Source of the DNA: Exiguobacterium aurantiacum
GTDB lineage: Bacteria > Bacillota > Bacilli > Exiguobacteriales > Exiguobacteriaceae
Length of the DNA: 64,000 nt
Direction of reading: 5' to 3'
Assembly (NCBI RefSeq): GCF_024362205.1
Contig: NZ_CP101462.1
Span: 1,454,501-1,518,500 of the forward strand
Positions within the stretch are counted from its first letter, which is position 1. Every line of letters begins with the position of its first letter. Of the stretch, positions 20 to 26,068 are shown piece by piece. The notes under the pieces are model-generated. The model saw only the letters and a program-made list of their open reading frames with translations. It searched no databases and was not told the origin of the DNA. The position numbers and the translations under genes are program-made.

Positions 20-404
20 GACTATGAGGTCTGGGCAATCGCGGGACGCAAGTCTTGAGGAAAGTCCATGCTCGCACAGCCTGTGATGGCTGTAGTGATC
101 GTGCTACACGAAAAGATAAGTGTAGGCAACGCAAGTTGACGGCAGAAGAAGCACCTAAGTCCTCGGATATGGTGCAAGCTTCTTGAAAGTGCCACAGTGA
201 CGGAGTCTGATCGGAAACGTTCAGAGTGGAACGAGGTAAACCCCACGAGCGAGAAACCCAAACTATGGTAGGGGAACTTCCTGACTGGAACCGAACGGGA
301 CGGAAGGCGCCACTCGGCGCAGATAGATGATTGTCACTCCATCGTGCCAGGGAGACCGTTATGAGCACCGGAGTACAGAACATGGCTTACAGGGCAGCAT
401 AGTC
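20..404 (+). ncRNA. rnpB: RNase P RNA, Bacillus type B
   Basis: Catalytic RNA subunit of RNase P, which removes 5' leaders from precursor tRNAs. The sequence shows the universal core: GAGGAAAGTCCATGCTCGCA near 58-77, GAAAGTGCCACAGTGACG near 185-202, the GGTAAACCCC block near 234-243, GAGAAACCCAAA near 250-261 and AACATGGCTTACAG near 379-392. The P1 helix can be drawn between GACTATG (20-26) and CATAGTC (398-404), which sets the ends. Its place before a ypsC-like gene matches the Bacillus order gpsB-rnpB-ypsC. Ends are good to a few bases. Confidence 0.97.
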
Positions 405-24431: not shown

Positions 24432-24532
24432 GAAAGATCCCTCCTTAACCGTTTTATAATAAAAAGAATCATTATGTTTGTAAAGAATAAATGAATGAAA
24501 AATTCAAAATTTAACGATTTTGAAACGAAATC

Positions 24533-24570
24533 AAAAACCACACTAAACGACTAGGTTCAGTGTGGTTTTT
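24533..24570. terminator. Terminator after the MFS exporter gene
   Basis: AAAAACCACACT (24533-24544) pairs with AGTGTGGTTTTT (24559-24570); T-rich on both strands. Confidence 0.85.
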
Positions 24571-24575
24571 ATAAG

Positions 24576-25820
24576 TCACGCTGTCTTTTGTTTCGCCTCG
24601 GCCGCACTGACGCGACGTCCGAGCTGCCAATAGATGAGGCCCGACACACAGCTGGCCGCCCCGACGAGGATCAAGGCAATATGGCCGGCCCGCTGGTCGA
24701 AGAACAGGCTTGCCATGATCGGCGCCGTCACCCCGCCGATCAACCATTGGATGCTGGCGGCCCCGTTGTAGGCCCCGCGCATGTTCTCCGGAGCGATCAG
24801 AGCGATGAACGTCTGCTGGACCGGGGACATGATCATCTCACCGAGCGTATAGAACGCGTACACCGCGAGCAAGACGCTGACGAGGACGAGGTACGGTGTC
24901 CCGAGTGAATAGAGGAGACGCGGCATGACCGCAATCAAGATCATGCCGACCCCGAAGATGGTCGCCCCGGCGAGCATGACGTTGCCGAACGGCTTGCGGC
25001 CGAGTTTCGAAGCAATCGGGAACTGGAACAACACGACCATGATGCCGTTCAAGGCGAGCATATAGGCGAACGGGTTCTCACGATCGGTGAACGATGGCAT
25101 CGACTCTCTCAAGAAGAGAGGCAGCATGCTCTCGATGAGCGAGAAGCCCATCGAGATGAAGACGCCGGCGAAAATGAAGACGAGGAAGACCTTGTCGTTA
25201 TAGAACACCCGAAGCACGTCCCGGTTCGACGGTATGTCGACATCGGTCGTCTCTGGGAGCGACTCCCGAATGTAGCGACCGAGCACGAGCGCATACAAGA
25301 CGAAGACGAGCGCGGCCGAGTAGAAGATATACTGCCGGTCGATGAACAGGACGGCGCTACCGAGGAGCGGTCCGAGCGCCGCCCCGATGTTATGGCCCAT
25401 CCTCAACAGGCCAAACGCCTCGTTCATCTGTTCAGGCTCGGTCACGTCGGCCACCATCGCGCTCGCGGCCGGATGGAACAACGAGTTCGTCAAGCCGAGC
25501 ATGGCGTTCAAGAGGAGGAGCGGCCAGAACGTCTCGGCGAAGGCGAAACCGACGAGGGCGAGGGCGTCGCCGAGAATGGCAGCCATCATGATTGGTTTGC
25601 GGCCATACAAATCCGCGAGCCGTCCGCCGACGACCGAACCGATCAGGGCCATGATCGGCCCGGTAGCCATGATGACACCGACCTGGATATAACTGTCGAG
25701 CTTGTCGCTGTAATAGAGGACGAGGAACGGCGCAATCATGAACATCATGACGCCGGTGATCGTCTCCCCGAGGAAACGGATCCAAATATTGCGGTCGAGT
25801 CGTTTGAGTGATTGAATCAT
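24576..25820 (-). CDS. MFS exporter, likely drug efflux
   Basis: Major facilitator protein of about 414 residues with 12 membrane helices. The loop 2-3 motif is GGRLADLYGRKPIMMAA near residues 65-81, matching motif A of MFS drug:H+ antiporters, and a second loop copy FPIASKLGRKPFGNVML lies in the second half. The substrate is not known. The ATG at 25820 is preferred over GTG 25829 because AGGTG lies at normal spacing. Expression appears controlled by an upstream leader peptide and attenuator (25850-25999), the kind of control used by antibiotic-inducible efflux genes in Firmicutes. Confidence 0.85.
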   Translation of the reverse strand: MIQSLKRLDRNIWIRFLGETITGVMMFMIAPFLVLYYSDKLDSYIQVGVIMATGPIMALIGSVVGGRLADLYGRKPIMMAAILGDALALVGFAFAETFWPLLLLNAMLGLTNSLFHPAASAMVADVTEPEQMNEAFGLLRMGHNIGAALGPLLGSAVLFIDRQYIFYSAALVFVLYALVLGRYIRESLPETTDVDIPSNRDVLRVFYNDKVFLVFIFAGVFISMGFSLIESMLPLFLRESMPSFTDRENPFAYMLALNGIMVVLFQFPIASKLGRKPFGNVMLAGATIFGVGMILIAVMPRLLYSLGTPYLVLVSVLLAVYAFYTLGEMIMSPVQQTFIALIAPENMRGAYNGAASIQWLIGGVTAPIMASLFFDQRAGHIALILVGAASCVSGLIYWQLGRRVSAAEAKQKTA

Positions 25821-25849
25821 TAGGTTCACCTGCTTTACTTAATAAAATG

Positions 25850-25888
25850 AAAAAAGGGACGCAGCATGCACAAAGGCATACGCGTCCC
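25850..25888 (-). terminator. Attenuator terminator before the MFS exporter
   Basis: On the minus strand GGGACGC (25888-25882) pairs with GCGTCCC (25862-25856), with GTATGC/GCATGC extending the stem, followed by six T. It lies only 29 bases before the coding start, so it would stop transcription before the gene unless disrupted. Confidence 0.8.
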
Positions 25889-25924
25889 TACGATCTTAGA
25901 CATGCCTCGGAAGGCAGGCGAACG

Positions 25925-25999
25925 TCACGGATTCAAATCACGGAGAGGCGCCTGCCGGTCAATATGGACTTGGACGTGCGAGTGTTGAATGACTGACAT
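25925..25999 (-). CDS. Leader peptide of the MFS exporter (24 aa)
   Basis: ATG at 25999 with AAGGAG at good spacing opens a 24-codon frame reading MSVIQHSHVQVHIDRQAP then LRDLNP and a TGA. It includes three His codons within seven (6, 8, 12). Codons 15-17 form arm A of a 3-arm alternating RNA structure that ends in the attenuator. Too short for homology; supported by position, ribosome site and the structures. Most likely a regulatory ORF where ribosome stalling changes folding. Confidence 0.65.
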   Translation of the reverse strand: MSVIQHSHVQVHIDRQAPLRDLNP

Positions 26000-26040
26000 C
26001 GGTACCTCTCCTTTCTGCATTGGACTGTCTTCTCTTCAAG

Positions 26041-26068
26041 ATTATGATATCTCTGTGAAATGTGTCAA
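26041..26068 (-). promoter_or_regulatory. Sigma-A promoter of the leader-MFS transcript
   Basis: TTGACA (26068-26063), 16-base spacer, CATAAT (26046-26041), about 40 bases before the leader peptide ATG. Confidence 0.6.

Follow-up and report, generated by a model that had tools for sequence, protein, structure and literature searches.

A candidate ribosome-mediated attenuator upstream of a drug-exporter-like MFS gene in Exiguobacterium, with RNA arms replaced in a sister genus

The window analysed here is a stretch of 64,000 nucleotides of an Exiguobacterium genome, and the locus of interest lies on its minus strand, where an exporter gene of the major facilitator superfamily (MFS) is preceded by a short leader ORF, a set of mutually complementary RNA arms and an intrinsic terminator. 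The features are as follows, in the direction of transcription.

26041-26068, minus strand: promoter, TTGACA-16-CATAAT, with 11 of 12 matches to consensus
26005-26011, minus strand: leader ribosome site SD1, GGAGAGG, part of arm S
25991-26011, minus strand: arm S, comprising SD1 and the start codons, the 5' strand of hairpin H1 (from H1 energy and pairing)
25925-25999, minus strand: leader ORF of 24 codons, MSVIQHSHVQVHIDRQAPLRDLNP, from the ATG at 25999 to the TGA at 25925
25942-25960, minus strand: 3' strand of H1, codons 13-20, including arm A (from pairing energies and conservation in the genus)
25949-25956, minus strand: arm A, GGCAGGCG, codons 15-17 (from A:B pairing)
25913-25923, minus strand: arm B, GTTCGCCTGCC, with the core CGCCTGCC at 25920-25913; alternative partners are A, C and the exporter ribosome site
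25901-25908, minus strand: arm C, GAGGCATG, partner of B (off) or of T1 (antiterminator), from B:C and C:T1 conservation
25880-25875, minus strand: TATGCC of the terminator arm
25856-25888, minus strand: intrinsic terminator hairpin T1:T2, -23.6 kcal/mol
25850-25855, minus strand: T6 tract after the terminator
25824-25833, minus strand: exporter ribosome site SD2, GCAGGTGAAC, complementary to arm B
24576-25820, minus strand: MFS exporter of 414 amino acids, DHA1-like, nearest solved chain LmrP
24532-24571, minus strand: terminator 3' of the exporter

The exporter matches PF07690 with an E value of 2e-47, placing it within the MFS fold, and also matches the MdtH, MdtG and Tet models, all far below their cut-offs. 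The nearest solved structures are LmrP (the best) and NorA. The protein carries a motif A, GGRLADLYGRKP, and a motif-C-like segment, GHNIGAALGPLLGS, which we take to be the signatures so named in this superfamily; with both the fold and antiporter-type motifs it resembles a DHA1 drug exporter, for which a drug-type substrate is putative. Plasmid-borne relatives, sought as a clue to the substrate, amounted to three remote MFS matches of 22-30% identity and were uninformative. Orthologues are 82-99% identical in named Exiguobacterium species and 66-67% identical in the E. sibiricum/undae/antarcticum group. The gene is probably transcribed alone, since a terminator follows it at 24571-24532.

A sequence-only reading of this DNA had proposed the promoter, the ribosome site, the 24-codon ORF, arms A, B and C, the terminator and the exporter, and all of these are present in the sequence where they had been placed. 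The leader ORF is nested in a longer ORF opening at an in-frame ATG upstream (26020), which was rejected as the true start because it is unconserved and the spacing of SD1 fits the ATG at 25999. Alignment of the promoter across the genus gives a -35 box of TTGACA and a second box of CATAAT or CATACA. One clade (L008 and L009) also has a perfect inverted repeat of 9 bp, TGACACATT-N5-AATGTGTCA, between the -35 and -10 boxes of the promoter. Other clades have this operator-like palindrome only in part, and it could serve a DNA-binding repressor acting in addition to attenuation. The whole leader RNA folds better than its dinucleotide shuffles (z = -3.0). A search of the leader with Rfam covariance models gave no family match, the sole weak match being to a microRNA model far below its gathering score, and a riboswitch or other known RNA family was rejected on this basis. 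Elsewhere in the window there are two SAM riboswitches (RF00162; 27362-27462 and 29769-29873), both on the plus strand upstream of plus-strand genes, and a bacterial RNase P class B RNA gene (27-394, plus strand).

The leader was compared across a genome search set drawn from a single family, with 19 genomes from the genus and as many from its sister genus. The leader ORF, the arms and the terminator precede the orthologous exporter in 19 of 19 genomes of the first and in 19 of 19 of the second, so that the arrangement is not a matter of chance. A DNA search retrieved 18 of the 19 leaders of the genus, and the nineteenth (L030) is also present. A GGAG precedes the leader ATG in all 38 genomes, in every one of which the ORF is 18-25 codons long and thus short and equipped with its own ribosome site, and in both genera an intrinsic terminator stands before the gene. 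Most of the arm sequences have been replaced in the sister genus, yet H1, A:B, B:C and the terminator still form. The sequence-only reading had named relatives as the place to look for a conserved leader ORF and conserved pairing, and both are found in 38 of 38; the alternating A:B, B:C, C:T1 and T1:T2 pairing that it had ascribed to a ribosome-mediated attenuator is likewise conserved in all 38. Terminators and short ORFs may turn up in any bacterial intergenic region, and the arrangement might be nothing other than a terminator of the upstream gene accompanied by a small ORF that arose by chance. We regard this as very improbable, given the strong promoter between the upstream gene and the ORF, the fact that every one of the 38 genomes retains the ORF with its ribosome site and the arms, and the continued pairing of the replaced arms.

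Among more distant relatives of the exporter (41-50% identity, family f17, and the metagenome-assembled locus L081) the upstream regions were read and no homologous leader was recognised. Locus L089, from a different family of Bacilli, has an MFS gene of 45% identity behind a 5-codon ORF, MKTAQ*. The strand with the ribosome site can pair there with a distal one, a terminator immediately precedes the gene, and this leader is possibly an independent attenuator on a related exporter.

The leader peptides of the genus range from that of the window to MSVMNGLQTKLHTDRQAP, with 18-25 codons. Codons 1-3 and 12-14 are nearly fixed, while codons 5-11 differ in the amino acid encoded, dN and dS being of the same order, and the position of the stop codon shifts; the reading frame through codons 1-18 is kept. 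All 19 genomes of the sister genus have the ORF, encoding peptides unrelated to those of the genus (e.g. MSQSFNQQQPIHVLATTVRHPIV, MVFHQARTSVHTVFVSATTVRHPIV, MKQPQAQRQIQVSNSSAIIVRHPIV and MNQQIIARQQSSAFSNTIEVRRPAV), and the fixed portion of these leaders is the stretch encoding arm A. Because the middle codons and the stop vary while the frame of codons 1-18 is kept, and because the sister-genus peptides are unrelated, the position of the ribosome seems to matter more than the peptide made. Codon 12 (CAT, window 25966-25964) is invariant in 19 leaders of the genus as aligned on that His residue, third base included, and sits outside the predicted stems; the AA of codon 10 is similarly invariant in the genus.

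Upstream of arm A the window leader contains three codons for His and three for Val. Together with the codon 12 His (CAT) of the 19 aligned leaders, these would suit an amino-acid-starvation attenuator, in which the ribosome pauses at leader His (or Gln or Val) codons as in classical biosynthetic operons. We consider this quite unlikely: codons 5-11 vary freely, with dN of the order of dS, no regulatory codon is common to the leaders of the two genera and no codon run is conserved, some leaders of the sister genus lack a His ahead of arm A (e.g. MNQQIIARQQSSAFSNTIEVRRPAV and MKQPQAQRQIQVSNSSAIIVRHPIV), and the downstream gene resembles a drug exporter rather than a biosynthetic or uptake gene. 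Any meaning of the richness in His and Val noted in the sequence-only reading is thus not borne out, with codons 5-11 free to vary and different peptides encoded in the sister genus. It is also unlikely that a conserved leader motif stalls the ribosome in a peptide-specific manner with one class of drug, as the +x+ motif does with macrolides. Conservation of MSV and H(I/T)D in the genus, and of a terminal VRHPIV or VRRPAV in the sister genus, would be in keeping with such an arrest, but the conserved codons lie mostly inside the pairing arms, where constraint on the RNA explains most of their conservation, and no motif is common to both genera. The stops vary as well, with L018 ending at codon 18, and the only +x+ sequence is the R-L-K of L010, which is near the end of the leader and after arm A; no arrest motif is therefore conserved.

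The sequence-only reading had described a three-arm system, which falls short of what is seen: SD1 and the start of the leader ORF constitute a fourth, upstream arm that pairs with A, and the exporter ribosome site is a further arm. In the window species hairpin H1 has an energy of -24.4 kcal/mol, equalled by 1 of 2000 shuffles, and 90.4% of its cells are paired across the 19 genomes of the genus. There it is formed by GGAGAGG...GUCAGU with AYUGAY...CCUCUCC, and in the sister genus by GACGUACA with UGUACGUC. Own-partner energies are -22 to -31 in the genus and about -15 in the sister genus (S:H3 within genera, -14 to -31), and fall to between -5 and -13 when strands are combined between genera. 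In E. aurantiacum (L012) both H1 strands have changed, and its own pairing is -30.8 versus -16.6 to -24.4 when swapped with other clades of the genus; strict double compensatory changes in H1 within the genus number none. When no ribosome occupies S, H1 is predicted to form and mask arm A, which would leave the exporter off.

The duplex energies in the window species are -17.8 kcal/mol for A:B, about -8 to -10 for B:C, -12.5 for C:T1 and -23.6 for the terminator. Shuffled arms did equally well in 6 of 2000 trials for A:B and 0 of 2000 for the terminator, compared with 455 of 2000 for B:C and 100 of 2000 for C:T1. In the window species alone B:C and C:T1 are thus weak, and their support comes from conservation across the 19 genomes of the genus, where the proportion of paired cells is 98.5% for B:C, 96.7% for C:T1, 95.4% for A:B and 93.5% for B:SD2. 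The corresponding value for the terminator, 83%, is an under-count, one clade being shifted in the alignment, and helices with one partner slid out of register have 62% or fewer of their cells paired. In L013 one altered position in B (GCATGCCT) turns B:C into a perfect palindromic hairpin of 8 bp, at the cost of one A:B pair.

Comparison between the genera shows that pairing has outlasted the replacement of the arms. The A:B energy with own partners is -14 to -18 in both genera, except for -10.7 in the most divergent member of the sister genus (L038), whereas cross-genus combinations give -0.4 to -12.5. Own-partner B:C energies are -8 to -12 in the genus and -20 to -22 in the sister genus, against -3 to -10.6 across genera. 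C:T1 lies between -10 and -16 and is not genus-specific, and the terminator ranges from -18 to -24; its hairpin and T-run are kept in both genera. The antiterminator C:T1, mutually exclusive with the terminator, is conserved in the genus (96.7%), and the evidence for it in the sister genus is weaker. Strict double compensatory changes within the genus are restricted to two pairs in A:B, two in B:SD2 and one in the terminator, with none in B:C or C:T1, and only B:SD2 clearly beats the shuffle control for covariation. Such a scarcity is expected if A and B each serve two or three partners, and with so few double changes within the genus the replacement of arms between genera is the main comparative evidence.

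SD2 (25833-25824) is complementary to B (25923-25914, GTTCGCCTGC) with an energy of -18.3 kcal/mol that none of 2000 shuffles equals. When the leader is scanned for the best complement to SD2, B comes first in most genomes of the genus; in the group of L008-L014 and L030 arm A is approximately as good, and B:SD2 is weak in several genomes in which A competes for the same site. For all 19 sister-genus genomes the best-scoring segment is the one that directly follows C (e.g. CCCCTTAT:ATAAGGGG in L041). This complementarity, through which the exporter ribosome site could be sequestered in the off state though weakly in some members, likely adds a translational lock, and the on fold would occupy the SD2 complement wholly or partly in both genera and so free SD2. 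Control might even be purely translational, with B sequestering SD2 and the terminator of minor importance, and it is true that B:SD2 is the most clearly covarying helix of the genus and that in both genera the leader holds a strong complement to SD2. Maintenance of the terminator hairpin and T-run in both genera and of C:T1 pairing in the genus nonetheless makes this a rather improbable account of the locus.

Folding was also performed with the footprint of a ribosome held unpaired, giving thermodynamic sketches rather than kinetics. For transcripts of the genus extending to the end of C, H1 has 16.3 pairs and B:C 5.4 without a ribosome. A ribosome placed on codons 1-4 abolishes H1 and leaves A:B with 7.3 pairs and B:C with 0.5, and one over A allows zero A:B pairs. 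C:T1 reaches 7.2 pairs in the genus when the ribosome is on codons 1-4. On the scan scale A:B drops when the ribosome is beyond about codon 4-8, depending on the species, and returns at codons 10-12 in some. In the sister genus the expected number of C:T1 pairs goes from 1.1 to 3.9 once a ribosome is placed early; there B:C is stronger than A:B at equilibrium and is still favoured in the shorter transcript, so that the on state would have to be kinetic, with A and B made before C. Even a leader free of ribosomes can form C:T1 at equilibrium in the window species (about 0.83 on the scan scale), and the off state there must therefore rest on kinetics and on the stronger terminator (-23.6 versus -12.5). 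Constrained folding supports a choice of fold by ribosome position in the genus, and does so only partly at equilibrium in the sister genus. An early stall favouring A:B and C:T1, as the sequence-only reading had proposed, is predicted by these calculations; missing from its on/off logic were that the absence of a ribosome would also be an off state, and that the on state would require a ribosome on about codons 1-6.

With a probability of roughly three in four, we interpret the leader as a cis-acting, ribosome-mediated transcription attenuator of the MFS exporter, built of six segments (S-A-B-C-T1-T2) and sensing early arrest of translation, probably by inhibitors. In the off state S:A (H1), B:C and T1:T2 would form and transcription would stop before the exporter; any read-through RNA would likely be poorly translated, B being able to cover SD2. 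A ribosome held on about codons 1-6 would cover S and leave A free to pair with B, C would then be free to pair with T1, and the terminator would fail with SD2 remaining open. A ribosome moving on over A would block A:B and restore B:C, such that the exporter would be off under normal translation. The switch would respond to early translation being slowed or arrested in general. Ribosome-targeting antibiotics that interfere with initiation or with the first codons are the most plausible cause, since they would park ribosomes early in the ORF, and a drug-type exporter would be the response. In E. coli, tetracycline has been found to stall ribosomes at start codons (PMC12121999). We give about even odds to the fuller proposal that, with S as the first segment and B having three partners including SD2, a single early-parked ribosome unlocks both transcription and translation, forming a peptide-independent sensor whose arms were replaced between genera while its logic was kept.

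On this interpretation an environmental genus would possess an inducible exporter that has apparently gone undescribed, with inhibitors that hold ribosomes on the first codons as its predicted inducers. The locus would also be a compact natural case in which competing RNA arms are replaced in a sister genus and the circuit is kept, and as such would help to separate RNA-encoded from peptide-encoded sensing in leader ORFs.

The chain S-A-B-C-T1-T2 resembles the enterobacterial his attenuator, a six-segment chain in which one helix register is off and the shifted register is on; the his leader is marked by a run of His codons, whereas no regulatory codon run is conserved in the leaders described here. 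In its proposed trigger the leader resembles that of vmlR of Bacillus subtilis, a gene for resistance to lincosamides, pleuromutilins and type A streptogramins whose induction goes through a ribosome stalled on its uORF (PMC9226507). The anti-antiterminator hairpin of vmlR, SL-1, encloses this small translated ORF together with its ribosome site; the drug-stalled ribosome opens SL-1, an antiterminator replaces the terminator, and the SD-hiding SL-4 is also removed (PMC9226507). H1 is of the same kind as SL-1, with uORF and ribosome site inside the hairpin, the likely hiding of SD2 parallels SL-4, and the proposed logic is nearly the same. However, vmlR encodes an ABCF ribosome-protection factor behind a three-codon ORF (MIN), whereas here the gene is an MFS exporter behind an ORF of 18-25 codons, and an extra alternating helix pair (A:B versus B:C) is interposed between the ribosome-opened hairpin and the antiterminator. 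The mefA/msrD leader MefAL is similar in being a ribosome-mediated transcription attenuator of a macrolide efflux gene, but contains the macrolide-arrest motif RLR (PMC10314930), and the leaders here have no such conserved motif. In the bmrB-bmrCD attenuator of B. subtilis, which is induced by 50S inhibitors, leader translation likewise governs a terminator before a multidrug transporter, but this is an ABC transporter and the terminator is within the leader coding sequence (PMC4191407) rather than after the leader ORF. Listeria hflXr (rli80) is another Gram-positive resistance gene whose leader combines a small ORF with a terminator and an alternative antiterminator, and differs from the exporter leader here in its 14-codon ORF with an RLR motif and in encoding a ribosome-splitting factor (PMC6310831). 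A search for literature on Exiguobacterium attenuators, with subscription journals mostly outside its reach, found nothing relevant. The sequence-only reading had called the attenuator new, and this holds insofar as it has no Rfam match and no paper on it was found; it does not hold for the principle, given that mefA (MefAL) and bmrCD are known and that vmlR has nearly the same logic. Control of drug exporters by ribosome-mediated attenuation, as in mefA and bmrCD, is therefore known already, and the present leader adds to it an extra alternating helix pair and arms replaced between genera.
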